Assembly: GCA_019114005.1 (NCBI GenBank)
Contig: DXGH01000072.1
Span: forward strand, 1 to 64,000
Direction: 5' to 3'
DNA: 64,000 nucleotides
DNA from: Candidatus Acetatifactor stercoripullorum
Lineage (GTDB): Bacteria > Bacillota > Clostridia > Lachnospirales > Lachnospiraceae
Below the pieces are notes generated by a model. The model did no database searches, was not told the origin of the DNA, and saw nothing but the letters and a program-made list of their open reading frames with translations. The first letter of the stretch is position 1. Each line of letters begins with the position of its first letter. Of this stretch, positions 27,335 to 62,411 are shown piece by piece. The position numbers and the translations under genes are program-made.

Positions 27335-27361
27335 AATGCTTTTCTCCTTACTTCGCATGGT

Positions 27362-28768
27362 TTAATATGCGTTTTTGTTGATAAAACCCGTAAAAAAGGT
27401 CATAAAAATAATTTTTATATCAAATCCTATGGTCCAGTTTTCTATATAGTAAATATCATACTCAATACGCTTGCGTATGGAGGTGTCGCCGCGCAGTCCG
27501 TTTACCTGCGCCCAGCCCGTCAGCCCGGGCCTCACCTGATGCTTTACCATATAGCGGGGAATTTCCTCTCTGAATTTTTCCACAAACAGAGGCCTCTCCG
27601 GTCTTGGTCCCACAAGACTCATATCACCTTTTAAAATGTTGAACAGCTGGGGCAGCTCATCTAAACTGGTGCGTCTTAAGAATCTGCCGATTCCTGTCAC
27701 CCTTGGATCGTTCTTTACGGTCCATGCCTTTTTCTCCTCCCCGGGAGGCTGCTGCTCCATGCTTCGGAATTTATACATATAGAAGGATTTGTTGTGAAGT
27801 CCCACCCTCTCCTGCTTAAAGATAACCGGTCCCGGACTGCCAAGCTTCACTAAAACAGCTGCCGCCAGCATGACAGGGGATGTTAAAATGATCCCCACAA
27901 GGGAACCCACAATATCCATAATCCGCTTTGTGACAATATTTCCCGTATTGGTCAACGGCACATACCGGATATTGATCACAGGAAGCCCCATCAAATCCTC
28001 AGTGTAGGGTCTGGTGGGTATCAATTTGTTGTAGTCAGGAATAAATTTTGTGTGCACTCCTGATTTTTCACAGATGCCCACAATGCTCTCTAACAGATCA
28101 TAATCCTTTAAGGACAGGGTAATCGCAATTTCATCCAGCTTATTCTCCGGAAGAATAATCTCCAGATTTCCCGTACTTCCCAAAACCTTGACCCCCTTAT
28201 AGAGGGTGCCGCTTGGAATATGGTCATCCAGAATGCCGCAGACAACATACCCCCACTGGGGATTGTCCAAAATTCTGTCAATATATTCCTCCGCTGCCCG
28301 GGAATACCCCACTAACAGAATATGCTTCAGATTGTAGCCCTTGCTGCGTATGGTTTGAAGGGATTTTCGCAGCACAATCCGGGCCGAAGCCGTCAGAAAA
28401 ACATTCAGTACATAAAAAAAAGCCATTACGGAACGAGAAAAGTTGATTTCCCGGATAATCATATAAAGTATGATAATCAGAGCGGCTAACCCGATGGTAT
28501 TTGCCTTTACAATCCCGTAAATCTCGTAGCGTCTTCTGACAGTTCTCTTTGGCGCATAGACGCCGCACCGATAATAAAGAAAAATATATCCCGGCACGAT
28601 AAAAACCAAAAGCATAATATAATCGCCGATGGGAAGCACGCCCACACCGGGACCATCGTTTAAAATATAAAATTTAATGATGTAGGCGAGTATCAGCGAA
28701 ACCGCCGTGAGAGCCGCATCCATTATGGTCAGCAGACGATTAAATACCTTCTGGTTATCTTTTATCAT
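27362..28768 (-). CDS. Polyprenyl glycosylphosphotransferase (initiating sugar transferase)
   Basis: 468-aa membrane enzyme that transfers a sugar-1-phosphate from a UDP-sugar to undecaprenyl phosphate, starting polymer synthesis. Four or five N-terminal helices are followed by a CoA-binding-like domain (HILLVGYSRAAEEYIDRIL). The C-terminal bacterial sugar transferase domain has KRIMDIVGSLVGI, KLGSPGPVIFKQERVGL, RTSLDELPQLFNILKGDMSLVGPRPERP and the end WTIGFDIKIIFMTF. Sugar could be glucose or galactose (WbaP/CpsE-like) but is not determined. It stands 27 bases before the LCP gene; an AT-rich hairpin precedes it. Confidence 0.92.
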   Translation of the reverse strand: MIKDNQKVFNRLLTIMDAALTAVSLILAYIIKFYILNDGPGVGVLPIGDYIMLLVFIVPGYIFLYYRCGVYAPKRTVRRRYEIYGIVKANTIGLAALIIILYMIIREINFSRSVMAFFYVLNVFLTASARIVLRKSLQTIRSKGYNLKHILLVGYSRAAEEYIDRILDNPQWGYVVCGILDDHIPSGTLYKGVKVLGSTGNLEIILPENKLDEIAITLSLKDYDLLESIVGICEKSGVHTKFIPDYNKLIPTRPYTEDLMGLPVINIRYVPLTNTGNIVTKRIMDIVGSLVGIILTSPVMLAAAVLVKLGSPGPVIFKQERVGLHNKSFYMYKFRSMEQQPPGEEKKAWTVKNDPRVTGIGRFLRRTSLDELPQLFNILKGDMSLVGPRPERPLFVEKFREEIPRYMVKHQVRPGLTGWAQVNGLRGDTSIRKRIEYDIYYIENWTIGFDIKIIFMTFFTGFINKNAY

Positions 28769-32993: not shown

Positions 32994-35114
32994 TTACGCA
33001 TCCTTCACTTTCAGGGAAAAATCACTGCGGTCCAGAGAAAAGTTGGGATTGTAGTAAGGGTCTCCCTTTGCCAGAACCTCCTTCCATTTCTGCCGGAATC
33101 TTTCAGACTCTCTGTCATAGCGCGCAGCCTTCTCCCCGCTGTCGTCCAGTCCTCTGGAGACAGACTCACAGTGAAACAGCTCTGCAAAGGGCGTAAAGAC
33201 GTTCAAAAGCCCCTTCTGCCGCAGCTTCAGACAAAAGTCCACATCGTTTAAGGATACGGCAAAGCCCTCATCCAGGCCTCCAGCCTCCTGATACAGGCTC
33301 TTCTTTACCAGCAGGCAGGCTCCCGTCACCGCAGACACATCCTGGGCATAGCAGAGCCGTCCCATATACCCCAGATTCTGCCGATGCTGCTTATAATGGG
33401 TATGTCCCGCAGTCCTGTGGGCTCCCAGACCGATGACCACTCCCGCATGCTGTATGGTCTTGTCGCCATAATAAAGCTTTGCTCCTACAGCCCCCACATC
33501 CTGGCGCTGGGCATACATGAGCAGCTCCTCCATCCAGTTGACAGTAATGACCTCCGTATCATTATTCAACAAGAGAATATAATCCCCCTCCGCATAAGAG
33601 ACACCCAGATTATTCACTGCAGAATAGTTGAATTCTCCGCTGTAGGCCACCACACTGATCTGGGGTGTGTCTGCAGTCTGCCCATTCTTTTCCCTATGCA
33701 GTATGCCGCCGTCCCGGCCGCACACCGTCATCTTTTTTGCAGTCTCCAGATAAGGATACCCCAAGAGCTCACTGTAGTACTCCCAGGTCTCATTCTCCTT
33801 GCTGTTGTTTTCCACAATGATAATCTCATAATTATCATAGGTAGACTTTTCCAAAATGGAGCTTACGCATCTCCTTAAATCTGCCACATGATCTTTGTTG
33901 GCGATTATGATGGATATCCTGGGACTGCCAATAATCTGATAGCGTATGCGGAAGATAGTTTCAAAGGCCCTGGTGCTGATGATCTGAAAATGGGAAAAAC
34001 CATGCTTTCTCAGGTGCTCCGCCACAGCCCCCTTTGCCGCCTCTATAGCGTAGGGCTTTGCCTCAATCCCAGAGGCCACGCTGCCAGAATGGCTCCTCCA
34101 ATAATACATCAGCCTGGGCACATGGACGATTTTTTTGGCATTGTCGGTAAGCCTTAAAATCATATCGTGATCCTGGCTGCCGTCAAACTTGGAGCGGAAC
34201 AATTCATTTCCATCCAAAAGCTTTCTGGCAAAGACACTGAAATGGCAGATATAATTGTTGGCTCTCAGATTGTCCGGCGCATAATCCGGCTTAAAGTGCA
34301 TGGTGAGCATCTTATTAATGTCGCCGCTCTTAAAGGTGGTCTCATCGCAATACAGATAGTCGGCCCCCTGTTCGTTCACCGCCTTTGCATATTCATAGAG
34401 CACGGAAGGATGGAGAATGTCGTCGTGGTCAAACAGGCCGATATATTCTCCGGTGGCCAGCTTCAGACAGGCGTTGGTATTTCCGGCAATTCCTTCGTTC
34501 TTTGGCAGCTTGCTGTACACAATGGTTCCAAGCTTCTTTTCCTGGGCCTGTTTTTTGTATTCCAGGCAGACCTCCCCCACATAGGAATGGTCCCCGTCGG
34601 AGCCGTCCGCCAGGCACAGCTCCCAGTTTGTGTAGGTCTGGTTCATCACAGAATCCAGCATCTGGGTCAGAAATTCTCTGGGGGTATTGTACAACGGCAC
34701 CAGAATGCTGAATTTTATCATTCTGGGAAAAACCGTTTCCCTCTCTTTTGCCGCCTGGGCCTGATCCGGAAAGCTCTCCGTACCAAATTGGCGCATAGCC
34801 TTTTTTTCTCTTTTCTTATAATCCAGCTTGTGAAGCACTCCTTTAGGGCCTCCACAGTTGGACAGTCTGTCCTTTTGCCGGATGACCCAGTGCACTGCCT
34901 TCCTTGCAGGCTTGCTGGCCTTCCACAGGGGATTCTTCTGAATGCGGTCTATCTTCCAGTTAAGCTCCTCGCATCTGGCCTCCAGATCGGCAATCCGGGC
35001 AGCCAAGTCCGCGCATTTTAAATGCTCTCTCTCATAGGCCTCTCTGTAAGAATCCTCCCCCTGGTTTGCTTCCCCTGACATTTTGTTTTCTGCATCTGAC
35101 ATATTCCGTTCCAT
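32994..35114 (-). CDS. Two-domain GT2 glycosyltransferase
   Basis: 706-aa cytosolic enzyme with an N-terminal coiled coil (about 10-60), a first GT2 domain (FSILVPLYNTPREFLTQMLD; LFDHDDILHPSVLYEY; DGSQDHDMILRLTDNA) and a second GT2 domain (ISIIIANKDHVADLRRCVSS; LLLNNDTEVITVNW; VSLNDVDFCLKLRQKG). Both domains keep acidic metal-site residues. Such dual GT2 proteins often build alternating linkages in rhamnan-type chains. Donor and linkage are unknown. The downstream neighbour is phosphoglucomutase and the upstream one is a second dual GT2, 8 bases away. Confidence 0.88.
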   Translation of the reverse strand: MERNMSDAENKMSGEANQGEDSYREAYEREHLKCADLAARIADLEARCEELNWKIDRIQKNPLWKASKPARKAVHWVIRQKDRLSNCGGPKGVLHKLDYKKREKKAMRQFGTESFPDQAQAAKERETVFPRMIKFSILVPLYNTPREFLTQMLDSVMNQTYTNWELCLADGSDGDHSYVGEVCLEYKKQAQEKKLGTIVYSKLPKNEGIAGNTNACLKLATGEYIGLFDHDDILHPSVLYEYAKAVNEQGADYLYCDETTFKSGDINKMLTMHFKPDYAPDNLRANNYICHFSVFARKLLDGNELFRSKFDGSQDHDMILRLTDNAKKIVHVPRLMYYWRSHSGSVASGIEAKPYAIEAAKGAVAEHLRKHGFSHFQIISTRAFETIFRIRYQIIGSPRISIIIANKDHVADLRRCVSSILEKSTYDNYEIIIVENNSKENETWEYYSELLGYPYLETAKKMTVCGRDGGILHREKNGQTADTPQISVVAYSGEFNYSAVNNLGVSYAEGDYILLLNNDTEVITVNWMEELLMYAQRQDVGAVGAKLYYGDKTIQHAGVVIGLGAHRTAGHTHYKQHRQNLGYMGRLCYAQDVSAVTGACLLVKKSLYQEAGGLDEGFAVSLNDVDFCLKLRQKGLLNVFTPFAELFHCESVSRGLDDSGEKAARYDRESERFRQKWKEVLAKGDPYYNPNFSLDRSDFSLKVKDA

Positions 35115-35122
35115 GCCTTCCT

Positions 35123-36982
35123 TTATCTATTTTCTCCGCCTTCCCCTATCTCTATCGTGCGAAGACTCCACCAAAGCAATTTGGTTTTTGTGACTGTATT
35201 TTTTGCCGCCATTCCAACCCGGTAGATTCCCCGGGGCAGGTTTTCTTCGGAAACCTTAAGCCAGAAGCCGCACAGACCTACCCGGTTCTGATCCGGCATA
35301 TTTTCCACAAGATCCGGTCTGTACTGTCCCTTCGTCTTTTGGAAAAACAAGGCTCCCTTCTGATCCTCAAACAAAAGATATCTCTCATAGCAGGAATTGT
35401 CATCCCCCAGCACCACGCCGTAGCCCTGAAGAATCCCCTGTTCGCAGGATTCTACCCGAAAAAGCAGGCAGGAATCCTCACGAAAGCCCCCAAGCCTTGC
35501 CCTTTTCGCCGTTCCCCTTTCCTCCTGCAGCTTGTTTCCTGCAGTCTCAAAGGCCGGGCGGATGCGGGTATCTAATCCCTGGCGGCTTAAATGGACGGAA
35601 TAAAAGGGGTCCTCCCCCAAAAGCGCCGGGTGCATTTCATACAAAAGCGCCCGCTCCTTAAGGAGCCGGTTCAGCTTTTCCTTTGTCTCATCGTCCCCCC
35701 GGCTTAAGGATTCGTGATGATAAGCATATAAATCGTTTCGGCACACATTAAAATACCCCAGCTCCCAGAGCTTAAAGCCAAGCTCCACATCGTTGAAGGC
35801 CACCTTAAGCCGGGGAGAAAATCCTCCCGCCAGACAGAATTTTTCCCGTTCCACCATCAGGCAGGCCGCCGTCACCGCCAGCACGTTCACAGTTCTTTTG
35901 TTCCAGCCAAAATAATAGTCCTGCGTATCCTCAAGAAACTGCAGCTTGTGCACCGGGCCCATGGGAAGGTTGACGATGCCCGCATGCTGGATGCGCACCG
36001 AATCAGGGTAATACAGCTTGATTCCAACCGCGCCAACATAAGGCTTTCCTGCGCTGAGAGCCATTTGCCCAAGGCAGTCCTCCCCGCACAGCTCCACATC
36101 GTCATTTAAAAAAAGCAGGAATTTTCCCCTTGCCCTTTCTGCACCCAGGTTGCACATGCTGGAAAAATCAAATTCCATGGGCTGATACAGGTAGGTATGC
36201 TCTGAAAGCATCTGCTCCAGATACCGCCTGTTCTCAGGGCTGCTGCCGTTGTCCACCACAATCACTTCCAGCTTAGTCCCCGTCCCCGCCCTTTCCAGGG
36301 CCTTCAGGCAGCGCCCAAGGAGCTGGGGATGATCCTTGGAGCAGATCACCGCGGAAACAAAGGGCTTTTCGTCTGTTATGCCTGCTGTGTCTGCCCCGTG
36401 GAGCGCGTCTTCCTTTCCGGCAGTATCAGGCTCCTTTTGACACTCCAGCATAGCCTCCCTGCTCTCCCAGTGAAACAGCACCTGGGGAATATGTGCTATG
36501 GACCTGCAGCCTCTTTCATAGCCTCCCGCCAGCTCCACGCAGGTTTTGACAAGCGTCCTCTCATCCACCGGCTCCCCGCAAAGGGCTGCCGCCTGCTCAT
36601 AAAGCCTTCTCCGCACGGCAGTCAGACCTCCGAAATAAAAAAGACTGTCAAACAAATCTGGAGACCAGTCCGGCTTGAACCAGGGACTGTGTCTGGGACC
36701 CCCGGGGGGCGTCTCCCACACATCCTCATCGCCGTAAAGCACCTGCACCTCTGGATGACCTTTAAAATACGCCCCAAGAAGAGCATCAGCACCTTTATCC
36801 GGCGTCCCCCCTTCAGAACAAACAAGCACAAAGGGAGACTCTTCCCCTGAGGTCTCCGGAGAAAAAAATGTCTGCCCTTCACACCACTGCTCATAGGTCA
36901 TACGCCTTTTTGCCAGGAGACGCTCATATTTTTTATTTTCCCGTTTTGTCAGCATATTCTTTGCCAGACTCTTTATGCTCAA
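35123..36982 (-). CDS. Two-domain GT2 glycosyltransferase, first domain degenerate
   Basis: 619-aa protein. The N-terminal third (FVLVCSEGGTPDKGADALLG ... LYGDEDVWETP ... SPWFKPDWSPDLFDSL) looks like a GT2 relic that keeps the D-E-D position but not the usual start. The middle third is a good GT2 domain (VSAVICSKDHPQLLGRCLKA; VVDNGSSPENRRYL; LLFLNDDVELCGED; VAFNDVELGFKLWELGY). The last ~120 residues form a separate beta-rich tail, possibly an acceptor-binding domain. Translation seems to begin at a TTG (36982) with GGAG upstream, as in the next gene. Donor unknown. Confidence 0.82.
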   Translation of the reverse strand: MSIKSLAKNMLTKRENKKYERLLAKRRMTYEQWCEGQTFFSPETSGEESPFVLVCSEGGTPDKGADALLGAYFKGHPEVQVLYGDEDVWETPPGGPRHSPWFKPDWSPDLFDSLFYFGGLTAVRRRLYEQAAALCGEPVDERTLVKTCVELAGGYERGCRSIAHIPQVLFHWESREAMLECQKEPDTAGKEDALHGADTAGITDEKPFVSAVICSKDHPQLLGRCLKALERAGTGTKLEVIVVDNGSSPENRRYLEQMLSEHTYLYQPMEFDFSSMCNLGAERARGKFLLFLNDDVELCGEDCLGQMALSAGKPYVGAVGIKLYYPDSVRIQHAGIVNLPMGPVHKLQFLEDTQDYYFGWNKRTVNVLAVTAACLMVEREKFCLAGGFSPRLKVAFNDVELGFKLWELGYFNVCRNDLYAYHHESLSRGDDETKEKLNRLLKERALLYEMHPALLGEDPFYSVHLSRQGLDTRIRPAFETAGNKLQEERGTAKRARLGGFREDSCLLFRVESCEQGILQGYGVVLGDDNSCYERYLLFEDQKGALFFQKTKGQYRPDLVENMPDQNRVGLCGFWLKVSEENLPRGIYRVGMAAKNTVTKTKLLWWSLRTIEIGEGGENR

Positions 36983-37004: not shown

Positions 37005-39095
37005 CTATAGCAGCCGCTTTACTGCCCCCGCCAGATCAGAGGCCATCTGCCCCGAAAGCCGCACAATCTCCATACGCACGGAAAGCAGATTCTCCTCCCC
37101 GGCCTCCAAAGCGCTTACTCGAATGTTGATATTGGGATCGGTGGTGGGAAATACAATGCAAGGACCCTGATCCTTATCCTCCCTGTCTGCCGGCTTTGCA
37201 ATCCGTCCGTTGACAACAAGCACCCCCCTGCGCTCTAAGGGCACCCGCTGCCCGTTAAAGGTCATGCCCATAATCTTAACCATACAGTAATCCATAGCCG
37301 GATCGATGCGCAGCATCTTCACATCTTTGCTTACCGGGATGGAAAACTCAATCAGGTTTTCTCCCTGATAGGCCTCTCTCACAAAGTAGGAATCCTCCTC
37401 GCGATAGCCTGTTCCCTTATCTTCATAAATCTGTACCCGGTTCACCGCCTCAGAATCCTGATACCGGTCTATCCACTTCTGGGGCACCATGATGCGCCGT
37501 CCCATCAGCTCCCGCAGCTTGGCCATAGAAGCGCGCTTTCCTGTGACAAAGCTCTGGAAATCCATTTCCTGACGCTTTAAGTCCTCCGCCTCCTCCTCTG
37601 TGATGTGAAGCAGCTGCAGGACTCTGGATATATCCAGCTTTTCCCTCCTTTTATCCTCTAAAAGATAGCAGTACACAGCCCGGAAGGCCAGCTCTCTGGC
37701 AGGAATTGGCTTCCCAAAGGTCCACTCATAGTCGATCAGCGTCCACGTATCCCCATTTACCAATATATTGGAAAATACCAGATCAAAATCCGACACCGGA
37801 TATTCACTGTGGTAGCCGATCCGATCCAGATATTCCAAAAAGCATTCATAAAATCCCTCCAGATCGTCCCGCTCCAGATATTTGTCCATATGCTCTGAGA
37901 GCGGCACCCCGTCCACAAAGGCAAATTCCGCGCAAAGCTCCCCATCCTCCTTCAGAGTACATTCATTGATGGAAAGTTTTCCGCCCTCATAGCGCTTCGT
38001 CAGGCTTTCACAGGCCGCCGCCATTCCCCGCACATGCTCCGCCGCCCTTTGGCTTAAGGGATACTTCCGCACTGCCTTCTCTCCCCTGCTGTTTCGGCTG
38101 ATCTGGGTTTTTACAGCATACTCCGGCGCCCGGTCATTGGAATATTTTACATATTTCACAGAGATCTCCGGGCCGATCACTACCTCATAGGAATTGGAAA
38201 ACACGGAAAACAGTCCGTCCTCCACAATACCGTCAAAGGCGTCCTTCTCCTGAAACAGCAGCATCCTGTCTCTGTCAAAATTACGCAGATTATTGCACAG
38301 CTCTCCCTTGCCCGGCAGATATGCGTCACTGTAGAGAGCGGTCATGAATTTATAGTCGGGATAGGGATAGTAAAAATGAGCCTCCTTTACGCCGCAGCGT
38401 CTAAAAATCCGCTCCAGCCCCCGTCTGCTGAAGGTGCGCACCCCGCCGCCCTGGGAATAATTTTCAATGCCGGAAAAATAGGTTCCCAGATGGTCCTCCC
38501 TGCAGCCCGCAAAATATTTAAGCCCATATTTATTCTCTATGGCAATGACAATTCTGCCCCCTTTGGCCAGATGAGGCATGAGAATCCGCAGAAAATCCTC
38601 GTAGGGCGTTTCCGTTCCCATATAGCTTTGTCCGTATTCAAACACTCCGATCAGGAAGATATAATCATAATCCCCCGGCAGGTCTGGCTCTATATCCTTA
38701 AAATTCCCCACATGGATGGTGACGTTTTCGCATTCCTTATGCCGGTATGCGTTGATCAGACTTCGCTTTTTAGACAAATCCACACAGGTCACATGGCCGC
38801 ATTTGCGGGCAAGGGCTCCGGTAACGGCGCCGCAGCCGCTTCCCACCTCCAGCACCTTTGCATTCTCATCCATTGGGAGCCAGTCCACAATATTCTCCCG
38901 CAGAGGAGAAAGGTGGTAGAGAATCGGCCAGCTCTTTTTCTCCTCAATCTTCGCCCCGTATTCCTCGGGCGGGAAATTCTGCACAATGGAGAGCAGCTCA
39001 TCCTCCACCGCGCCGTCGCAGTACAGGTCCTCCCCTGTATATCTGCTGTAATCCAATGTAATCCTTCCGATCTGTTCTGTCTTTTCCAAACTCAA
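37005..39095 (-). CDS. Methyltransferase-kinase fusion, WbdD-like candidate chain terminator
   Basis: 696-aa cytosolic protein in three parts. Residues 1-250: class I SAM methyltransferase with motif I VLEVGSGCGAVTG (81-93) and VTCVDLS. Residues about 300-480: kinase-like fold with D438-x4-N443 (FDLVFSN) and D455 (LIDYEW), the catalytic and metal-binding pattern of aminoglycoside-phosphotransferase/eukaryotic-like kinases. Residues about 560-690: beta-rich tail (NLIEFSIPVSKDVKMLRIDP). A methyltransferase joined to a kinase is the architecture of WbdD, which caps polymannose chains with phosphate and methyl and sets their length before ABC export. Here the gene is 9 bases from a Wzt-like ATPase with a carbohydrate-binding type C-terminus. 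The role is inference. TTG start (39095). Confidence 0.75.
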   Translation of the reverse strand: MSLEKTEQIGRITLDYSRYTGEDLYCDGAVEDELLSIVQNFPPEEYGAKIEEKKSWPILYHLSPLRENIVDWLPMDENAKVLEVGSGCGAVTGALARKCGHVTCVDLSKKRSLINAYRHKECENVTIHVGNFKDIEPDLPGDYDYIFLIGVFEYGQSYMGTETPYEDFLRILMPHLAKGGRIVIAIENKYGLKYFAGCREDHLGTYFSGIENYSQGGGVRTFSRRGLERIFRRCGVKEAHFYYPYPDYKFMTALYSDAYLPGKGELCNNLRNFDRDRMLLFQEKDAFDGIVEDGLFSVFSNSYEVVIGPEISVKYVKYSNDRAPEYAVKTQISRNSRGEKAVRKYPLSQRAAEHVRGMAAACESLTKRYEGGKLSINECTLKEDGELCAEFAFVDGVPLSEHMDKYLERDDLEGFYECFLEYLDRIGYHSEYPVSDFDLVFSNILVNGDTWTLIDYEWTFGKPIPARELAFRAVYCYLLEDKRREKLDISRVLQLLHITEEEAEDLKRQEMDFQSFVTGKRASMAKLRELMGRRIMVPQKWIDRYQDSEAVNRVQIYEDKGTGYREEDSYFVREAYQGENLIEFSIPVSKDVKMLRIDPAMDYCMVKIMGMTFNGQRVPLERRGVLVVNGRIAKPADREDKDQGPCIVFPTTDPNINIRVSALEAGEENLLSVRMEIVRLSGQMASDLAGAVKRLL

Positions 39096-39104
39096 ATCCT
39101 CTTC

Positions 39105-40382
39105 CTACTCCTCACTGTCCGTTACCGCAACCTTAGAATCCATATCATAAAAGCCCACCGTGTTCTTATCGGATACCACTGTCACATTCAGGGCGTCATA
39201 CAGTCTGTGATACACTTCAAAGACATCCTTATTGTACCCGGTCACTCCCAGGGACAAGAGATACTCCCCTCCCTGCAGGCTCATTTTCTGGGTAAAGGAG
39301 ACCTCCTTCACCGCTCCCGCCTCCACACTGTCTAAAAAGGACTTCTCGATCATGGAATTGGTGCCGGTGATCTCCGTGCCCGTAACATTCTTAAAAGAAA
39401 AAGCAAAAATGGGCGCCGGGATCGCATCCCTGAATTTTACCTTCATGTGCAGCGTAAACGTCGTTCCCTTGATCACAGCCGTTGTCCGCACACCCTGGTC
39501 GTCTGTAATATAGTATTCCACAATTTCGGCCTGCTTTGTGCCATATTCCAGCAGATGGGGATTTTCTCCCCTGGAAGCAGCCTGGGCCGCCCTCCTTACG
39601 TCGTCATCCTCCAAAAGCTCCTGATTTTTCTCCACCGCCTCATACTGGCCCACAAGCACCCGTTTGTAAGCGTCGATCATCTCCTTGGGCGACCCCTCTC
39701 CCAAGAGGCTTCCCCTGTTTAAGAGAAATACTCTGTCACAGTACTTGCTGATACTGCTTAAATCATGGCTCACAAACACGATGGTCTTGCCCATCTCCTT
39801 AAATTCTTCAAACTTGTGGTAGCACTTGGCCTGGAAAAATACATCCCCAACGGAAAGAGCCTCGTCCACGATCAGTATCTCCGGATCAATGTTGATAGCC
39901 ACCGCAAAGGCCAGCCGCACAAACATTCCGCTGGAATAGGTTTTCACCGGCTGATAGACATAATCCCCGATATCTGCAAATTCCAGTATTCCCGGAAGCT
40001 TCTCATCAATTTCCTTCTCGGAAAAGCCCATCATGGTGCCGTTTAAGTACACATTTTCAATGCCGTTATACTCCATGTTAAACCCGGCCCCCAGCTCCAG
40101 AAGGGCCGATATCCGCCCGTTTACCTGAACCTGTCCCTGGGTAGGGTTCAACACCCCGGTAATGATTTTCAGGATGGTAGATTTTCCGGAGCCGTTGGTG
40201 CCGATAATCCCCACGGTCTCCCCTCTGTAGATGTTAAGGCTCACACCGTTTAGGGCATAGTGCAGCTTGTGAATCTTCTTTTTTCCAAAGCCAAAGGCTT
40301 CCTTCATCCGGTCCTGGGGCTTGTCGTAAAGCTTATATATCTTTTTGACATCCCTGACCTCTATGGCAACATTCTGTTCCAT
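39105..40382 (-). CDS. Polysaccharide ABC exporter ATPase with Wzt-type C-terminal domain
   Basis: 425-aa ATPase partner of the Wzm-like permease. The NBD has Walker A GTNGSGKST (61-69), signature VKTYSSGMFVRLAFA, Walker B ILIVDEAL, and H-loop VFVSHDL. Residues about 280-410 form a beta-sandwich (IVEYYITDDQGVRTTAVIKG, FAFSFKNVTGTEITGTNS, GGEYLLSLGVTGYNKD) matching the Wzt C-terminal domain, which in O9a-type systems recognises the chain-end modification. Next to the methyltransferase-kinase gene, this suggests export gated by a capped chain end. It overlaps the DUF6056-like gene by 22 bases. AAGGAG precedes the ATG. Confidence 0.92.
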   Translation of the reverse strand: MEQNVAIEVRDVKKIYKLYDKPQDRMKEAFGFGKKKIHKLHYALNGVSLNIYRGETVGIIGTNGSGKSTILKIITGVLNPTQGQVQVNGRISALLELGAGFNMEYNGIENVYLNGTMMGFSEKEIDEKLPGILEFADIGDYVYQPVKTYSSGMFVRLAFAVAINIDPEILIVDEALSVGDVFFQAKCYHKFEEFKEMGKTIVFVSHDLSSISKYCDRVFLLNRGSLLGEGSPKEMIDAYKRVLVGQYEAVEKNQELLEDDDVRRAAQAASRGENPHLLEYGTKQAEIVEYYITDDQGVRTTAVIKGTTFTLHMKVKFRDAIPAPIFAFSFKNVTGTEITGTNSMIEKSFLDSVEAGAVKEVSFTQKMSLQGGEYLLSLGVTGYNKDVFEVYHRLYDALNVTVVSDKNTVGFYDMDSKVAVTDSEE

Positions 40383-41905
40383 GCGCTCGCTCCTTTTGTA
40401 TCCTTCACCACAACGGAGGATTTTCCATACCAGTTCGCCACGGCCCGGTTCGCCTCATTGTCCGGATCGTCGGACAAATCCCCCATGCACAGCAGCCACG
40501 GCCTGTAATGATAGGGAGAAAGCACCACATCCGGTTCACTGCTTTTTAGAATTTCCACCCGCTTTAGATATTCCTGATAAAAATTATAGGCCTCTCCCGT
40601 ATGCACGTAATAATAGGCCCCGAAAGAAGAATAATTTCCCGCCTGATTCGGTGAAACGGAAAAAATTGCCAGCATAACCGCCCCTAAGATGGGATAAAAC
40701 CACCAACAGGGAAGACTGCCAAATCCCTTCTTTCTTTTTTCCAGACAGCCCGAAAGCCACCCAAGAATATATACCTCGTTTAAAATCAAAAGAAGCTGCC
40801 AGGTGATCTTCACCGCATTTAACGTTCTGGAAAGCCCCGCATGGCCCAGCGAATACAGACTGGACGTAAATCCGGTGGCATACAGGCAAAGGGACCAGAC
40901 TGCCACCAGCCCCGGCAGATGAAAGGAAATCCTGCATTTTTTTACCATCTGCCAGATCACCGGCAGGAGCAGAACCATAACCGCAAGGGTGATAAAGCCT
41001 GTAAACTCCCACATATGGCCAAAGGCCTCCAGAAAGGAATGCCACACAGCGGACAAAGGGGAAAGCCCCCAGCCCACATAGCTGCGGGCCCTGACTTGAT
41101 TGCCCGGAGCGGCTGCATTTTTGTAAAATCCCACCGCATATACGCAGACAGCCGGCAGTAAAAGAAGAGTCCGCTTAGGCTTTTTATACCAAAAAATGCC
41201 TGCGGCGCCAACACTTAACAGCAAAAGGCCTCCCTGCAAGGCTGTCACATAGTTGCTGCCTGCCACAAGAAGGGCCAAAAGCATGCTTAAGATCACAAGG
41301 GCAATCCGCTTAAGCCTTCCCGAAACCAGAAGAAGCTTGATCACGCAGGCGGTAAACAGCAAGCAAAAGGCGTGCATCCCTACATAATGAATTCCCGCAT
41401 TATACCAGAAAAACCCGGCCTGGGAGGAATAGATCAGCACAATCACCACCGCTGCGGTCACCGACTGCAGAACCACACAGGAGGCCCCGTCTCCTCTTGC
41501 CACATCCATCACCAGAACCTTTACCAAAACAAAGATTCCGGTAAGCAGCAGGGCAAAGAGAAATAAGGGCCCGAGAAAATACTTGTCCTCTCCCCATATG
41601 CCCGGCATCAGCGTCATAAAAAAAATGGAGGAATAGGTTCCCTGCCAGGCATACCACTGGGTTTTCACACAGGAAAGGGCGCCCTTTAGGGCCCCCCAGG
41701 GGGAATCCGTCATTTCCATCCACGCTTTGGCAAAGCTTCCATAATTGTAATCATCATACCAAGGCACCGCATAAAAGGAAATGCGCACTAAGGGCACCAG
41801 CAAAAGCGCCAGTGCAAGCAAAGCGAAAACAGCAGTCAGCCTCACAGAGGGCTTCCAGAAAAAAATTTTTTTCAGCTTTTTAGAAAAATTTCCCATATCC
41901 GTCAT
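40361..41905 (-). CDS. Polytopic membrane protein, DUF6056-like (possible GT-C glycosyltransferase)
   Basis: 514-aa protein with about 10-12 transmembrane helices. The first extracellular loop after helix 1 reads ISFYAVPWYDDYNYGSFAKAWME, with an acidic D-D pair where GT-C enzymes keep their catalytic Asp. The C-terminus is a small extracellular domain (EAYNFYQEYLKRVEILKSSEPDVV). This fits the DUF6056 family in surface-glycan loci, which probably use polyprenyl-phosphate sugars outside the membrane. It lies between the wzm- and wzt-like genes, an odd place. ATG at 41905 is chosen for AAGAGG upstream. Confidence 0.7.
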   Translation of the reverse strand: MTDMGNFSKKLKKIFFWKPSVRLTAVFALLALALLLVPLVRISFYAVPWYDDYNYGSFAKAWMEMTDSPWGALKGALSCVKTQWYAWQGTYSSIFFMTLMPGIWGEDKYFLGPLFLFALLLTGIFVLVKVLVMDVARGDGASCVVLQSVTAAVVIVLIYSSQAGFFWYNAGIHYVGMHAFCLLFTACVIKLLLVSGRLKRIALVILSMLLALLVAGSNYVTALQGGLLLLSVGAAGIFWYKKPKRTLLLLPAVCVYAVGFYKNAAAPGNQVRARSYVGWGLSPLSAVWHSFLEAFGHMWEFTGFITLAVMVLLLPVIWQMVKKCRISFHLPGLVAVWSLCLYATGFTSSLYSLGHAGLSRTLNAVKITWQLLLILNEVYILGWLSGCLEKRKKGFGSLPCWWFYPILGAVMLAIFSVSPNQAGNYSSFGAYYYVHTGEAYNFYQEYLKRVEILKSSEPDVVLSPYHYRPWLLCMGDLSDDPDNEANRAVANWYGKSSVVVKDTKGASAWNRMLP

Positions 41906-41928
41906 CAAGCCTCTTCCAAACCACAAAG

Positions 41929-42915
41929 CTACAGCACATCTGCAAAGTGTACCTTGAGCCGCTTAAACACCAGGGCTCCTATTCCAAACAGTACCACCGT
42001 CACAATCCAAAAATACATGGTGGAGAAGAAATCCTGGAAAAACCATTCTTTTTCATAGATGGCGCTGCGGTAGCCATTTACAATGTACACAAGAGGATTC
42101 AGCTTCAAAACCTGCACCCAGTCCTGATGAATAGAGTTGATATCCCATAAAATCGGGGTGGCCCACATGCCGATCTGCAATGCAATGTTGATAATCTGGG
42201 ACAAATCCTTGAAAAAGACCACAACTGCACAGGTTGTATAGCTTAAAGCCAGAACAAAAATAAACAGACAAGCACTGTAGTAGAACAGCTGCAGCGTGTA
42301 CACGCTTGGATAATAGCCATAGGCGATTGCCACAATCAAAAGAATTCCCACAAAGAACACATGGATGAAGGTTGCCGCAATCACCTTGATGATGGGAAGA
42401 ATGCTGATCTTAAACACCACCTTCTTCACCAGATAATTGTATTCCAAAAGCGCATTAGTGCCATTGTTCAATGCCTCGCTGAAATAAAACCAGGGCACCA
42501 GACCCGCTGTCAGAAACAGCACAAAGGGAACCTCCACGCCGCTTCGAAGCACAGGGCCGCTGCTGCCAAATATTTTATCAAACACCACATAATACATCAG
42601 CACCGTCACCACAGGCTGGGCCATGGCCCACACCGCTCCCAGATAGGAGCCTGCGTAACGCTTTTTAAAGTCATTTTTTGCAAGCTTCCAGATCAGATGC
42701 CTGTTTTGAAACAGCTCCACCGGCAAGGAGGTGAATTTGTCATACCATTTAGAAAAAATAATGCAGGAGGCCAAAATGACAACACAGGATATGATCTTTT
42801 TCAGAAGCTCCTCCTGCCTGTCCGCTCCCGGATTATAATGAATCACAATCATCATTGCCATGGCAAACCCCGCCAGGTTAAAAATAGTGATTCCGGCTTT
42901 TTTGCTTATCTTCAT
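41929..42915 (-). CDS. Polysaccharide ABC exporter permease (Wzm/TagG-like)
   Basis: 328-aa ABC-2 type permease with six helices after an N-terminal amphipathic stretch. It carries the family signature LIWKLAKNDFKKRYAGSYLGAVWAMAQPVVTVLMYYVVF and later SYTTCAVVVFFKDLSQIINIALQIGMWATPILW and NPLVYIVNGYRSAIY. It forms the transmembrane channel with the Wzt-like ATPase for polymer export. There is one extra N-terminal helix pair (ITIFNLAGFAMAMMIVIHY) ahead of the usual start. The ATG at 42915 is downstream of rmlC; the longer open frame overlaps rmlC and lacks support. Confidence 0.9.
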   Translation of the reverse strand: MKISKKAGITIFNLAGFAMAMMIVIHYNPGADRQEELLKKIISCVVILASCIIFSKWYDKFTSLPVELFQNRHLIWKLAKNDFKKRYAGSYLGAVWAMAQPVVTVLMYYVVFDKIFGSSGPVLRSGVEVPFVLFLTAGLVPWFYFSEALNNGTNALLEYNYLVKKVVFKISILPIIKVIAATFIHVFFVGILLIVAIAYGYYPSVYTLQLFYYSACLFIFVLALSYTTCAVVVFFKDLSQIINIALQIGMWATPILWDINSIHQDWVQVLKLNPLVYIVNGYRSAIYEKEWFFQDFFSTMYFWIVTVVLFGIGALVFKRLKVHFADVL

Positions 42916-42941
42916 GTTGCACTGCCCATCCTCTTTCAAAT

Positions 42942-43493
42942 TTACCGGCGAAGCTGTGAAATACCTCCCCATTTTGTGTCCTTCTGGGAGAGAATCAGCT
43001 CCATCCCCTCCGGGATGGGCCATTCCACGCCGATGTCAGGATCATTATAAAGAATTCCTCCCTCATCGTCAGGATGATAAAAATCCGTGCATTTATAACA
43101 AAATTCCGCATAGTCAGACAGCACCAAAAAGCCGTGGGCGAAATTTTCAGGAATAAAAAACTGCTTTTTATTCTCCTCGGAAAGCAAAACGCCATGCCAC
43201 CTTCCATAGGTGGCAGAACCTGGCCTGATATCCACAGCCACATCGAAAACCTGGCCTTTTATGACCCGCACCAGCTTGGCCTGTGGAAACTGCTTCTGAA
43301 AATGCAGTCCCCGTAATACCCCTTTCCTGGAGGCTGACTGGTTGTCCTGCACAAACACCCGGTCAATGCCAGCCGCCTTGTAATCCTCATAATGATAGGT
43401 TTCCATAAAATACCCTCTCTCGTCGCCGAACACTGTAGGGGTAATAATTTTCAGCCCTTCAATCTCACAGGCCTCCACTGTAATTTTTCCCAT
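42942..43493 (-). CDS. rmlC: dTDP-4-dehydrorhamnose 3,5-epimerase
   Basis: 183-aa cupin epimerase of the dTDP-L-rhamnose pathway, acting on the product of RmlB. Conserved segments: GDERGYFMETYH, the catalytic-histidine region VLRGLHFQKQFPQAKLV, VDIRPGSATYG, and IPENFAHGFLVLSD. Full family length. Together with rmlA and rmlB close by, three of four rhamnose genes are present; rmlD is not in the window. AGGAGGC directly precedes the ATG. A copy of the palindromic repeat sits 70 bases upstream. Confidence 0.95.
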   Translation of the reverse strand: MGKITVEACEIEGLKIITPTVFGDERGYFMETYHYEDYKAAGIDRVFVQDNQSASRKGVLRGLHFQKQFPQAKLVRVIKGQVFDVAVDIRPGSATYGRWHGVLLSEENKKQFFIPENFAHGFLVLSDYAEFCYKCTDFYHPDDEGGILYNDPDIGVEWPIPEGMELILSQKDTKWGGISQLRR

Positions 43494-43562
43494 TCCATGC
43501 CTCCTATTTCCACTCGTATATCTGCATTTGCAAAATTTATTTTAAGACCAAATTGCGGCCGC

Positions 43563-43657
43563 CATATCTTTCATAAGCAGACCCTGTCTGGCCGACGGCA
43601 CTTAGGCTGCGTCCTTTGCAGCCTTATGTACCGCTGCGGTCAGACCGGAGCGAAAGC
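43563..43657. repeat. Palindromic intergenic repeat, copy 2 (one arm lost)
   Basis: Matches the 122-bp unit through ATTTCATAAACAGAC-like left arm, the CTTAGGCTGC-GTCCTTT-GCAGCCTTA apical hairpin and the GCGGTCAG...GAGCGAAAGC right part, then stops 2 bases before the stop codon of the GH25 gene. The outer right arm is missing or replaced by coding sequence. More diverged than the other two copies in the left stem. Confidence 0.8.
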
Positions 43658-43659
43658 AA

Positions 43660-44967
43660 TTATTCATCAATTCCCAGATAGCTTACATTCATATCCACAT
43701 TTCCCTGGATACCGTCGATACGGCCCTTGGAAGTGTACTGCCACATTTGATAATAGCCCTGATAAATGGGGATGCTTCTGTACTCCGCAAGCCAGATGCA
43801 GTAATTTTCCAGGCGCGCCGTCTCCAGATAGCTGTTATACCAGTTGCGGCTGCCGTATACGCCCGCCCGGTATCCGGCATTTTCTATGGTGCGGCAGAAA
43901 GCCTCGCAGACCAAGGTTCTGGTTTCCACATCCAGCCCGTCCGCTCTTCCGTTTCCTCCCGCACTCTCTGTATCAATAAAAATAGGGTAATCAATTTTGT
44001 ATTCCCGGACAAGATTGAGCACAGCGGACGCTTCCTCAACAGCCTCCACCTCATTTACAGCCTGGGTAAAGAAATACACGCCCACCGGAATCCCGCTTGC
44101 AGCCGCACCCTTCATATTCGTTTCAAAATAGGGGTCCTCCACAAGGCTTCCCGTCACAGAGCCGCGATAGCCTGCCCGCACGATGGCAAACTCCACCCCT
44201 GCGTTTTTCACCTTGTCCCAGTCAATATCGCCGTTCCATTTTGACACATCAATCCCCACTTTTGAATTTCCGGTGGCTGTCTGCAGCTTCCTGATCTCGG
44301 TGCTGTCCGCATCCTCTATGGCATCCTGAACACCGGAGTCCTCCGCCTGTGCATCAATTTCATCCTCGGTCTTGATCAAAAGGGAGATGTCCTCAATGGC
44401 CAGATATTCCACCTTATCCTTCACCCGGACTCTGGTCTCGTTTGTGGGAACCTTATAGCCCTCTATGGGGAGCAGCTCTACATAGTATTCCCCCGCAGAG
44501 AGTCCTCCTATGTAAATCACGCCGTCCTGATCCAGATCCTTATACTCCTCTGAATCGTCCAGCCGCACGTAAAAGCTCTCTCCTGAAACCAGCTCTCCCG
44601 ACATGTCCACAATCTGTATCCTAAGGTCCTTCTCCACGGAGGTCACCATCAGAGACAATCGGTTTTCCTGATTTCTGGCCGCCTCCAGCACAGGATTGAT
44701 TTCCCTGTCAAAAAAGGTTTCATCCTCCAGAAATGCGGACAGGTCGTCCCCGATCTGTCCGCCGGGAGCGCTTTGCGCCTGGGGAGCGTCCTGGCCCCCC
44801 TGGATGCTCTGCACTGTCTGGCTGTCCTGCACTGTCTGGCCATCCTGCAAAGTTTCCTGGCCTCCGGCAGAAAAGCTTTCCCTGTTGGCGTACAATACCA
44901 GCACAGATATCAGCAGAATCGCTCCCATCGATATTAAAATAGCCATCCGCCGCAGCTTAGAGTCCAT
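43660..44967 (-). CDS. Membrane-anchored GH25 (lysozyme-like) protein
   Basis: 435-aa protein. An N-terminal transmembrane anchor ([20 protein letters not shown]) is followed by a Gln/Ser-rich linker, a prealbumin/SpaA-like beta domain (about 110-200: [23 protein letters not shown]) and a C-terminal GH25 domain. GH25 residues are visible: [11 protein letters not shown], the D-x-E pair in [11 protein letters not shown], and [15 protein letters not shown]25 enzymes cut the MurNAc-GlcNAc bond of peptidoglycan. It sits between rmlC and rmlA and overlaps rmlA by 11 bases, so it is made with the polymer genes. Likely wall remodelling for polymer attachment. Start chosen at 44967 for GAGGTGG. Confidence 0.88.
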
Positions 44968-45826
44968 TTGCCACCTCAACTAAATATTGGCCATAATTGG
45001 TCTTCATCAAAGGCTCCGCCAGCAAAAGAAGCTGTTCCTTGTCAATAAAGCCTCTTTTATAAGCAATCTCCTCTATGCAGGAGATATACAATCCCTGACG
45101 CTTCTGGAAAGCCGCCACGAAATCCGCCGCATCCAAAAGGGCGTCATGATTTCCCGTATCCAGCCATGCAAAGCCTCTCCCCAGCGTCTCCACATAGAGG
45201 CTTCCCCGCTCCAGATACGTATTGTTGATGCTGGTGATCTCAATTTCTCCTCTGGCGGAGGGCTTTACATTTTTGGCGATCTCCACCACATCGTTGTCAT
45301 AAAAATACAGCCCCGGCACTGCGTAATTGCTCTTTGGATGCTCTGGCTTTTCCTCGATAGAAATTGCCTTCCCCTTTTCGTCAAACTCCACCACGCCGTA
45401 TTCCTTAGGGTCTCTCACATAATAGCCGAAGATTGTGGCTCCCTTCTCTCTGGCGGCCACTTCCCGCAGAACCTTGGTAAAGCTTTGTCCATAAAAAATA
45501 TTGTCCCCCAAAACCAGGGCGACTCTGTCGTTTCCGATAAAATCTGCGCCAATAATAAATGCGTCCGCAAGCCCTCTTGGCTGTTCCTGCACTGCGTAAG
45601 AAAATTCCATGCCCAGCTGGCTCCCGTCCTTTAACAGCTCCTGGAACACAGGCAGATCCCTGGGAGTAGAGATAATCAAAATTTCTCTGATGCCTGCCAG
45701 CATCAGGGTTGACAGGGGATAATAAATCATCGGCTTATCATATACGGGCATAATCTGCTTGGATATTGCCTTTGTGAGCGGATAAAGTCTGGTTCCCGAA
45801 CCTCCCGCCAAAATAATTCCTTTCAT
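44957..45826 (-). CDS. rmlA: Glucose-1-phosphate thymidylyltransferase
   Basis: 289-aa nucleotidyltransferase that makes dTDP-glucose, the first step to dTDP-rhamnose and dTDP-amino sugars. It has the N-terminal signature [42 protein letters not shown], the sugar-binding E-E-K-P ([18 protein letters not shown]), and [13 protein letters not shown]. Normal length. AAGGAGG site. Its stop overlaps the GH25 start. Confidence 0.96.
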
Positions 45827-45887
45827 GGGTTTTCCTCCTTCTTGTTTACGGAAATCGCGCTGTTCTCACAGGCTTTGTAAACGCGCC

Positions 45888-45916
45888 AAATGGGAACGAG
45901 AAGCTCGTCCCCATTT
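45888..45916. terminator. Hairpin between rmlB and rmlA
   Basis: 13-bp stem AAATGGGAACGAG / CTCGTCCCCATTT with one mismatch. The T-run is better on the plus strand, so for the minus-strand operon it may be an RNA-stability or attenuation element rather than a terminator. Confidence 0.4.
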
Positions 45917-45929
45917 TTTGATCTCCTGT

Positions 45930-47012
45930 TTACTTTCCGTACATCTCCGTGTAATATTTCTGGTAGTCGCCGCTTGTTACATTCTTCATCCAATCCTCAT
46001 GCTCAAAAAACCACTGTATGGTCTTTTTTATGCCCTCCTTAAACATGGTTTCCGGTTCCCAGCCGATCTCTTTTCTGATCTTGTCCGGCGCAATGGCATA
46101 TCTGCGGTCATGTCCCTTTCTGTCCTCCACATAGGTGATCAGGTCTCTGCTCACCAGCGCCTTTCTGGGGTCCTCATCAGACAGCATTTCCTGCAAGGTG
46201 TCAATAATGATATGGATAATCTCAATGTTCTGCTTCTCGTTGTGTCCCCCGATATTGTAGGTCTCAAAAAGCCTTCCCTTCTCCTGCACCATATCAATGG
46301 CCTTTGCATGATCCTCCACATACAGCCAGTCACGCACATTTTTGCCATCCCCGTACACAGGGAGCTTTTTCCCCTGCAGCGCATTGTTGATGATCAGGGG
46401 AATCAGCTTTTCCGGAAACTGATAGGGGCCGTAATTGTTGGAGCAGTTTGTGATATTGGCCGGGAAGCGGTAGGTATCCATATATGCCTTTACCAGCAGA
46501 TCCGACCCGGCCTTGCTGGCCGAGTAGGGGCTGTGGGGATCATAGGGCGTTGTCTCATAGAAAAAGGCGTTGTCGTCATCCGGCAGGGAACCGTACACCT
46601 CATCCGTAGACACATGCAGAAACTTTTTGTCCTCCTTAAAGCTTCCGTCAGGCAGCTCCCATGCCGCCTTTGCACAGTTGAGCATAACAGCGGTTCCCAG
46701 CACATTTGTGCGCACAAACACCTCCGGGTCCCGGATGCTCCTGTCCACATGGCTCTCTGCGGCAAAATGCACCACTCTGTCGATCTCATTCTCCGCAAAG
46801 ATTCTGCCGATAGCCTCCTTGTCACAGATGTCGGCTTTCACAAAGGTATAGTTTGGCCGTCCCTCCACGTCTCTTAAATTTTCCAGATTTCCCGCATAAG
46901 TCAGGGCGTCCACATTGATAATCCGGATAGCTTCCCCGTATTTGCGGAACATATAATGGATATAATTGGAGCCGATAAAGCCTGCTCCTCCGGTCACAAG
47001 ATAAGTCCTCAT
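45930..47012 (-). CDS. rmlB: dTDP-glucose 4,6-dehydratase
   Basis: 360-aa short-chain dehydrogenase/reductase-type enzyme that makes dTDP-4-keto-6-deoxyglucose. NAD-binding TGGAGFIGSNYIHYM, catalytic STDEVYG (Asp-Glu), YSASKAGSD (Tyr-x3-Lys), and SNNYGPYQFPEKLIPL. Slightly longer than the usual ~340 aa. Its product feeds both RmlC and, in the second half of the locus, the RffA-like aminotransferase. AAGGAG precedes the ATG; a small hairpin separates it from rmlA. Confidence 0.95.
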   Translation of the reverse strand: MRTYLVTGGAGFIGSNYIHYMFRKYGEAIRIINVDALTYAGNLENLRDVEGRPNYTFVKADICDKEAIGRIFAENEIDRVVHFAAESHVDRSIRDPEVFVRTNVLGTAVMLNCAKAAWELPDGSFKEDKKFLHVSTDEVYGSLPDDDNAFFYETTPYDPHSPYSASKAGSDLLVKAYMDTYRFPANITNCSNNYGPYQFPEKLIPLIINNALQGKKLPVYGDGKNVRDWLYVEDHAKAIDMVQEKGRLFETYNIGGHNEKQNIEIIHIIIDTLQEMLSDEDPRKALVSRDLITYVEDRKGHDRRYAIAPDKIRKEIGWEPETMFKEGIKKTIQWFFEHEDWMKNVTSGDYQKYYTEMYGK

Positions 47013-53741: not shown

Positions 53742-53775
53742 TTTCTTCTCCATGCCCTGGGCATCAAAGCAGCCC

Positions 53776-55509: not shown

Positions 55510-55524
55510 GGGCGCCTCACAAGT

Positions 55525-58696: not shown

Positions 58697-58707
58697 ACTC
58701 ATCTCCG

Positions 58708-59835: not shown

Positions 59836-59844
59836 AAGCTCCTC

Positions 59845-60798: not shown

Positions 60799-60811
60799 TT
60801 TTTATCCTCCG

Positions 60812-62365: not shown

Positions 62366-62411
62366 TTTTATCCTTCCTTTCCTCAATTTGTAACAGCTCC
62401 TGGCTTATGCT

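Follow-up and report, generated by a model that had tools for sequence, protein, structure and literature searches.

How might a Gram-positive bacterium recognize that a polysaccharide chain is finished and ready for export? This question is raised by a gene cluster of Candidatus Acetatifactor stercoripullorum (Lachnospiraceae; assembly GCA_019114005.1, contig DXGH01000072.1, positions 1 to 64,000). This whole stretch of 64,000 nucleotides is called the window below, and all window features described here lie on its minus strand. A 696-amino-acid (aa) open reading frame (ORF) with a TTG start (37005 to 39095), here called the terminator, begins 9 bases after the 425-aa ORF of the ATP-binding cassette (ABC) exporter ATPase Wzt (39105 to 40382). 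A preliminary description made from the letters alone had read the pair as a WbdD-like methyltransferase-kinase beside a Wzt with a carbohydrate-recognition domain and had proposed capped-chain export of the Escherichia coli O9a kind. Judged from sequence and from analogy with studied systems, the terminator is likely to cap a rhamnose wall polysaccharide with a methylated phosphate, which Wzt would read before export.

Terminator architecture and active-site conservation

A one-genome-per-species scan returned 395 terminator relatives, and the loci of the best 80 were kept; their record titles are mostly Lachnospiraceae or Acetatifactor. Alignment A1 contains the window protein and relatives from 66 of the 80 loci, after some near-duplicates and sequences of odd length were dropped. 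In addition, 19 distant stretches from other genera were chosen because their layouts were odd or their matches weak, and counts among them are not rates; a twentieth, a 100-base placeholder, was left out.

The terminator consists of a methyltransferase, a kinase-fold domain, and a beta-rich tail, in that order. The methyltransferase (residues 1 to 292; 38220 to 39095) exceeded the cutoffs of Pfam families Methyltransf_12, Methyltransf_25, Methyltransf_23, and Methyltransf_11 (E value for Methyltransf_12, 3.1e-9), is a domain of the AlphaFold2 model, and has a mean all-against-all identity of 75% across related loci. Its S-adenosylmethionine (SAM) motif I, E83-V-G-S-G-C-G89 (VLEVGSGCGAVTG; 38829 to 38849), keeps G85, G87, and G89 in 67/67 rows of A1 and E83 in 66, with D in the other row. 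The form E/D-x-G-x-G-x-G occurs in all 80 terminator ORFs longer than 600 aa in the first locus set, window copy included.

The middle domain (residues 293 to 530; 37506 to 38219) carries a candidate ATP-binding lysine, K344 (38064 to 38066), located in the model on the strand immediately preceding the domain's first long helix, and the catalytic motif D438-x4-N443 ... I-D455-Y-E-W (37731 to 37784). K344, D438, N443, and D455 are invariant in the 67 close rows and in all 19 distant Bacillota variants. The first Protein Data Bank (PDB) match of the full-length model (mean predicted local distance difference test [pLDDT] score, 86.2) was WbdD (4azs; E value, 2.5e-9; 571 gapped alignment columns). 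Because the global template modeling (TM) score was 0.20 and the root mean square deviation across the 571 columns was large, this fit concerns parts of the two proteins and not their whole arrangement. When the middle domain was modeled by itself (pLDDT, 85.5), most of the 50 listed PDB matches had titles naming a kinase or phosphotransferase, including Rio2, CDK1, GCN2, APH(2''), and PRPK; titles without such wording belonged to 6zxe_z, 6g18_v, 5yjz, 5yk1, 5yk2, 7cy2, and 7cz2, and WbdD was absent among the 50. With E values from 3.8e-5, the kinase fold assignment is therefore sound, but the domain is not assigned to a subfamily.

Searches by sequence recognized mainly the methyltransferase. 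PDB sequence and profile searches with the full terminator placed methyltransferases on top and protein kinases weakly below (best, GCN2; E value, 0.01), PHROGs returned methyltransferases only, and no NCBIfam family exceeded its cutoff. Across the 67 members of A1, Pfam kinase matches were limited to APH in 3 and Pkinase in 2, all weak. The tail (residues 531 to 696; 37008 to 37505) shows a series of strands at 554 to 679 in the DSSP assignment of the model; no known domain could be tied to it, and a two-sequence search against a Gram-negative tail gave an E value of 4e-4. In a separate locus (L140, 54 to 1457, minus strand), a 467-aa ORF adjoining a Wzt_C exporter that has no terminator matches the beta tail (33 bits) and neither the methyltransferase nor the kinase, so the tail may occur alone. 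The SAM motif, the D438/N443/D455 residues, the beta-rich tail, and the 9-base spacing are thus present as first described, and the proposed kinase is now accompanied by fold matches and by a lysine invariant in the Bacillota proteins seen.

The terminator belongs with the O7 ORF6 type

A translated search found two plasmid-borne relatives, P0001 (Citrobacter braakii) and P0002 (Pseudomonas asturiensis). The P0001 locus contains rml genes, wzm, wzt, the terminator, and glycosyltransferases, and the P0002 locus contains wzm, wzt, and a 1,457-aa protein, so that the order wzm-wzt-terminator is present in Citrobacter and Pseudomonas too. P0002 combines a methyltransferase, a kinase motif, a further region, and two GT2 modules, a layout resembling that described for Klebsiella O7 ORF6. 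The N-terminal part of ORF6 was shown in vitro to place a methyl phosphate on O3 of rhamnose, and the D441A variant gave no product (PMC11231755). All six published methyltransferase residues of ORF6-O7, Y28, Y66, G91, G93, E112, and Y158 (PMC11231755), are found at identical numbers in P0002, with the catalytic Asp at 443 instead of 441. Their counterparts in the window protein are Y25, Y60, G85, G87, D106, and Y154, and D441 corresponds to D438. Except at D106, which is D in 45 and E in 22 of the 67 rows of A1, where ORF6 has E112, these window residues match those of ORF6 and are invariant (67/67).

Profile comparison led to the same family. A1 matched P0002 in one stretch (model positions 22 to 682; 198.6 bits) and P0001 up to position 346 only, and the kinase profile alone against P0001 or P0002 fell short of significance with the database size set to one million. 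Using hhalign against a profile of P0001, P0002, and L117 (E. coli), 465 columns (22 to 521) covering both methyltransferase and kinase aligned with a probability of 100% (E value, 3.9e-51), and the kinase alone aligned to the O7-type profile with a probability of 97.5% (E value, 6.7e-12). A WbdD-type profile was made of two enterobacterial proteins, one annotated WbdD (L114) and one encoded beside O9-family wzt and wbdA (L113). Against this profile, only 85 methyltransferase columns aligned (probability, 77%), and the kinase scored 0.3%. The WbdD family label was rejected on this basis, with 465 columns aligned to the O7-type profile. "WbdD-like" therefore holds at the level of fold, where WbdD was the first match of the full model, and fails as a statement of sequence lineage. 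By sequence, the protein belongs with the O7-ORF6-type terminators, and it is predicted to work like WbdD.

Both Gram-negative systems share features with the window protein. Klebsiella O7 ORF6 has a methyltransferase, a kinase of about 220 aa, and a beta domain in the same order (PMC11231755). Behind the ORF6 kinase lies an immunoglobulin-like, carbohydrate-binding domain (PMC11231755), and the beta tail of the window protein is its positional counterpart, with no profile match. The ORF6 polymer contains rhamnose, as is inferred for the window, and the fused layout of ORF6 is seen in two relatives described below (L079 and L098). Unlike ORF6, which acts on an O antigen, the window protein would serve a Gram-positive wall polysaccharide with a predicted LytR-CpsA-Psr attachment, and the polymerase and a candidate coiled coil are on a separate protein, GtB. 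Orthologs of ORF6-O7 have been named from alpha- and gammaproteobacteria and cyanobacteria (PMC11231755). E. coli O9a WbdD also has a methyltransferase followed by a kinase with a D-x4-N ... D motif (D351, N356, and D369) (PMC3482155) and a partner Wzt with a carbohydrate-binding domain and an R-x-YD motif. It differs in having a kinase not relatable by profile to that of the window, and, as described, in a coiled-coil domain after the kinase and in a mannan in place of a rhamnose polymer (PMC3482155).

When E. coli genomes were searched at the DNA level for the Citrobacter terminator, there was no match. On a conjugative C. braakii plasmid (L083), an O7-type terminator is part of a rhamnose O-antigen-type locus, which has a group II intron and an IS630 transposase nearby.

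A Wzt residue that goes with terminator type

Wzt has a nucleotide-binding domain (residues 1 to 245; 39648 to 40382; ABC_tran E value, 9.6e-23) whose closest solved chains are the ABC transporters 8dku and 7k2t, which we take to be the Aquifex WzmWzt transporter. The C-terminal carbohydrate-binding domain (residues 275 to 415; 39138 to 39560; 73% mean all-against-all identity) matched Wzt_C (PF14524) over residues 279 to 414 with an E value of 6.1e-41, and its sole significant PDB sequence match was 2r5o (E value, 1.8e-7), presumably the C-terminal domain of E. coli O9a Wzt. These matches bear out the Wzt-type tail that the preliminary description had assigned to the ATPase. In this domain, 57 of 141 positions are at least 97% conserved.

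The same kind of Wzt domain in Aquifex aeolicus recognizes a 3-O-methyl cap: Asn313 contacts the sugar ring, and Trp362 stacks against the methyl group (PMC9445017). In an alignment to the Aquifex chain, with chain numbering taken as that of the paper plus 1, Asn313 corresponds to Asn342 of the window Wzt (39357 to 39359), and the ring-contacting residue is thus kept. Trp362, in contrast, corresponds to Arg393 (39204 to 39206), the proposed reader of the cap phosphate. Judged by sequence only, the cap-site equivalents Asn342, Ser377, Gly379, Thr381, and Arg393 all fall among the conserved positions.

Arg393 is present in 79/79 rows (window plus 78 relatives). In distant Bacillota Wzts, Arg occurs in 14/14 and the motif R-x-YD in 13/14, the remaining sequence (L099) having R-L-Y-E. 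R-x-YD is common to the Wzts of C. braakii, P. asturiensis, L117, the two WbdD-type loci, and 2r5o, and the Arg393 equivalent was present in every Wzt checked from the two WbdD-type and three O7-type Gram-negative loci. Trp is found at this position in the Wzts of L115, L116, and L119, where the terminators match Methyltransf_24 and no Pfam kinase, and also in L118, whose following gene matches nothing in Pfam; neither Arg nor Trp is present in L120, which has a GT99 terminator. As enzyme-free controls, 16 genomes were chosen from the 30 same-family genomes that have Wzt_C and no terminator, and all 20 of their Wzt_C matches were used. R-x-YD occurred in 0/20, and one (L135) has Trp. The residue at the Arg393 position goes with the type of terminator.

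Pairing of terminator and wzt across the family

In 79 of the 80 related loci, wzt is upstream of the terminator on the same strand, and in the remaining locus a contig edge coincides with the start of the gene. Pairs overlap or are at most 230 bp apart in 77/79. To place these neighborhoods in the family, 299 same-family genomes (298 genera) were surveyed, with a terminator called at an A1 match of E ≤ 1e-12. This cutoff was used because it falls in the gap between E values of 3.3e-13 and 4.0e-9 that divides the terminator family from generic methyltransferases. A terminator was found in 157/299 genomes.

Terminators occurred in 150 of the 180 genomes with any Wzt_C (E ≤ 1e-3) and in 7 of the 119 without one (both, 150; Wzt_C only, 30; enzyme only, 7; neither, 112). 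At E ≤ 1e-20, the corresponding counts were 149, 15, 8, and 127, and at E ≤ 1e-33 they were 148, 3, 9, and 139. At E ≤ 3.8e-35 they were 148, 0, 9, and 142, so that the terminator was present in 148/148 genomes with the strongest Wzt_C matches, versus 9/151 of the rest; the complete count holds for these strongest matches only. Among the 130 genomes with the strongest terminators, the gene starts less than 300 bp after Wzt_C in 97 and within 5 kb downstream in 116; the other 14 comprise 7 without a listed Wzt_C, 4 in which it is on a different contig or strand, and 3 in which the order differs. Three of the 27 weaker-match genomes were examined (L096, L097, and L111), and in all three the terminator adjoins wzt. 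The possibility that the two genes are neighbors by chance was rejected from the 79/80 and 97/130 counts.

In a phylum-wide draw of 348 genomes, 12 had a terminator match, 8 of them outside the family. Two loci of the Lachnospiraceae type come from records titled Muribaculum (L006; 70% identity) and Gastranaerophilales (L023; 66%), labels of metagenome-assembled genomes that are probably wrong.

Fused polymerases and decayed methyltransferases

One-piece terminators occur among the 19 distant stretches, as do proteins with the methyltransferase and kinase split into neighboring ORFs (L099, L100, L101, L104, and L105). A whole terminator is fused with GtB in L098, and fusions with shorter glycosyltransferases are found in L096, L097, L106, and L107. 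L079 encodes a 1,366-aa fusion in which residues 5 to 690 are terminator-like and 685 to 1365 are GtB-like. L079 and L098 thus join enzyme, tail, and GtB in one ORF, which is the O7 layout. GtB of the window (32994 to 35114), a likely polymerase with two Pfam GT2 modules, is related to the C-terminal glycosyltransferases of O7-type fusions and shares 36.5% identity over 572 columns with P0002 residues 924 to 1449. The recurrent fusions and this likeness therefore support a terminator-polymerase complex, predicted to be split in the window.

Among the distant stretches, the decayed METHYLTRANSFERASES of L093, L094, L095, L110, and L111 have a shortened or unrecognizable core and no SAM motif, and L096, L097, L103, L106, and L107 have a longer core with an altered SAM motif. 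These ten all keep K344, D438, N443, and D455, and the seven of their Wzts that were aligned (L093, L094, L095, L097, L106, L107, and L111) keep R-x-YD. A SAM motif lost or altered beside unchanged kinase residues is most simply read as a sign of a phosphate-only cap. The pattern suggests that relatives with a decayed methyltransferase make such caps; some altered motifs may retain SAM binding, and the phosphate-only reading leaves room for a separate methyltransferase elsewhere in those genomes.

The polysaccharide locus

The cluster reads, in minus-strand order, GH25-domain protein, rmlB, rmlA, second GH25-domain protein, rmlC, wzm, the DUF6056 gene, wzt, terminator, gtA, gtB, phosphohexomutase, gtC, gtD, WcaJ-type transferase, and LytR-CpsA-Psr ligase. 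Supply of dTDP-rhamnose was assigned from Pfam matches of rmlB, rmlA, and rmlC, with a GH25-type protein among them (42942 to 47012); rmlD is on a different contig. The ABC-2 permease Wzm (41929 to 43023; ABC2_membrane E value, 2.3e-16) is encoded close to wzt across related loci. GtA (35123 to 36982), a GT2 glycosyltransferase by Pfam, varies between species. At the N terminus of GtB, residues of about 22 to 58 (34941 to 35051) form a candidate coiled coil, found by eye and with a simple heptad script, that may act as a length ruler.

WcaJ enzymes initiate chains on undecaprenyl phosphate, and LytR-CpsA-Psr enzymes attach them to peptidoglycan. The window encodes a WcaJ-like undecaprenyl-phosphate hexose-1-phosphate transferase (27362 to 28768; TIGR03023, 502.5 bits against a cutoff of 410.75) and a LytR-CpsA-Psr ligase predicted to make the peptidoglycan linkage (26216 to 27358; PF03816 E value, 3.2e-30; TIGR00350 above its cutoff). 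Because the locus has rml genes and this ligase, the polymer probably contains rhamnose and is probably fixed to peptidoglycan.

The two GH25 (lysozyme-type) domain proteins (43660 to 44979 and 47093 to 50104) are on either side of rmlB and rmlA, one of them carrying Big_2 and choline-binding-type repeats; GH25-type relatives occur in 68/80 related loci, often in two copies. The DUF6056 membrane protein between Wzm and Wzt (40361 to 41926), which has relatives in 36 of the retrieved loci, is perhaps a side-chain glycosyltransferase. A region encoding DUF6077, DUF6044, and GtrII-type (PF14264) membrane proteins with a GT2 enzyme and a DegT aminotransferase (52677 to 62386) looks like a side-chain decoration module. 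Two adjacent large serine recombinases at the window edge (85 to 3502) likely belong to a mobile element.

A proposed route of capping and export

In the proposed mechanism, a rhamnose-containing cell wall polysaccharide would be made by the ABC transporter route. Undecaprenyl phosphate would be the carrier on which WcaJ begins the chain, and cytoplasmic elongation would be the task of GtA, GtB, and other GT2 enzymes. The terminator would then halt growth, its kinase phosphorylating the nonreducing terminal sugar (at position 3 of rhamnose, if Klebsiella O7 is a guide) and its methyltransferase methylating that phosphate. The C-terminal domain of Wzt would bind the capped end with Arg393 touching the phosphate, so that only finished chains would go through Wzm/Wzt, and the LytR-CpsA-Psr enzyme would finally attach the chain to peptidoglycan. 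Capped-chain export, as originally proposed, remains the reading best supported by comparison; the WbdD lineage does not stand, and neither does the impression that no Gram-positive example had been described.

A described Gram-positive example already exists. In Geobacillus stearothermophilus, WsaE caps a rhamnan by 2-O-methylation, a modification that Wzt is predicted to bind (PMC2943079). Like the window system, this one combines a Gram-positive host, a rhamnose polymer, a capping enzyme adjoining wzm-wzt, and a Wzt predicted to read the cap (PMC2943079). It differs in a 2-O-methyl cap without phosphate and a chain joined to S-layer protein, and a kinase goes unmentioned in the accessible part of that report (PMC2943079). 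Compared by description only, the terminator does not belong with WsaE-type enzymes that have a methyltransferase and no kinase, its kinase motif being invariant in close and distant relatives. No paper on a phosphate-type cap or terminator in a Gram-positive bacterium was found in a search of mostly open-access literature; such loci may be listed in the 2019 census by Mann, Kimber, and Whitfield (Glycobiology), a bioinformatic study. A methyl-capped chain is thus already on record for a Gram-positive bacterium, and the predicted phosphate-methyl cap would be a variant of that kind.

A number of observations weigh against phosphate-methyl capping as proposed here. The middle domain of the window protein has no Pfam kinase match, and its Foldseek matches are modest (best E value, 3.8e-5; TM scores mostly 0.3 to 0.5). 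K344 is kept in 0/3 aligned Gram-negative relatives, and D455 is replaced by Glu in one of these three. Profile comparison of the tail with Gram-negative tails gave a probability of 0.1%, the long coil is absent from the terminator model, and the sole coiled-coil candidate is on GtB instead. Membership in the O7 type was established through relatives, ORF6-O7 itself being linked through the residue numbers of P0002. The 80 loci are the best of 395 and hence close kin, and the co-occurrence counts are uncorrected for shared ancestry. Wzt_C occurs without a terminator in 30/180 genomes, mostly as weaker matches, with three (G067, G257, and G291) just under the strong cutoff. In the Arg/Trp comparison, the only known methyl cap is that of A. 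aeolicus; L115, L116, and L119 are softer controls, and their want of a Pfam kinase is no proof that a kinase is absent, because Pfam misses the window kinase too. Biochemistry or polymer structure for the source organism was not found in the literature searched.

Alternative explanations

The terminator could instead decorate internal residues with phosphate or methyl-phosphate, the Wzt domain reading the repeat unit or nothing specific. No computed result places the acceptor at the chain terminus, and DUF6056 and the other variable enzymes of the locus suggest side decoration. A repeat-unit reader, however, would not be expected to show the conservation seen here, with mean all-against-all identities of 75% for the methyltransferase and 73% for the Wzt C-terminal domain, compared with 51% for GtC, 48% for DUF6056, and 45% for GtA. 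GtB, at 66%, is only slightly lower, and conservation alone is weak evidence because gtB, wzm (72%), pgm, and the rml genes are not cleanly separated. The closest tested type of relative, O7 ORF6, is a terminator (PMC11231755), and fusion with polymerase-type glycosyltransferases recurs. Internal decoration is on these grounds unlikely.

We consider it highly improbable that the cap is methyl only, with the middle domain an inactive kinase-like scaffold and the methyltransferase acting on the terminal sugar as WsaE does. The one Gram-positive precedent is a methyl cap (PMC2943079), and Pfam does not recognize the window kinase. Such a scaffold would hardly keep D438, N443, D455, and K344 in 67/67 close and 19/19 distant relatives, and the 10 of 19 picked variants that lose or alter the SAM motif and keep the kinase residues are the opposite of what this account predicts; in addition, Wzt has Arg, not Trp, where A. 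aeolicus packs on the methyl group. Slightly less probable still is an ordinary sugar or lipid kinase joined to a methyltransferase that acts on a precursor, adjacency to wzt reflecting operon membership only. The kinase-fold matches do include small-molecule phosphotransferases such as APH(2''), but the tight tie to a carbohydrate-binding Wzt (150/180 versus 7/119 genomes), which tracks one residue there, and an order of wzm, wzt, and terminator kept in two Gammaproteobacteria both speak against a role confined to precursors.

Implications for Lachnospiraceae

A broader possibility, which we put forward tentatively and at somewhat less than even odds, is that about half of the sampled genera of the family export a wall polysaccharide only once its growing end has a phosphate-based cap, with Arg393 reading the phosphate and with a bare phosphate sufficing where the methyltransferase has decayed. 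If so, phosphate and not methyl would be the essential export signal, and one Wzt residue would predict cap chemistry across phyla, so that the Arg/Trp difference could serve as an inexpensive guide to cap type. The relatives in which the methyltransferase has decayed would show, as a natural experiment, whether the phosphate or the methyl half of the cap is the important one. If the capping reading is correct, an inspection step reported chiefly from O antigens, in which a phosphate cap ends growth and the exporter then checks it, would also govern a wall glycopolymer in a large gut Gram-positive family, and it would offer a handle on how Lachnospiraceae set the length of their surface polysaccharides.

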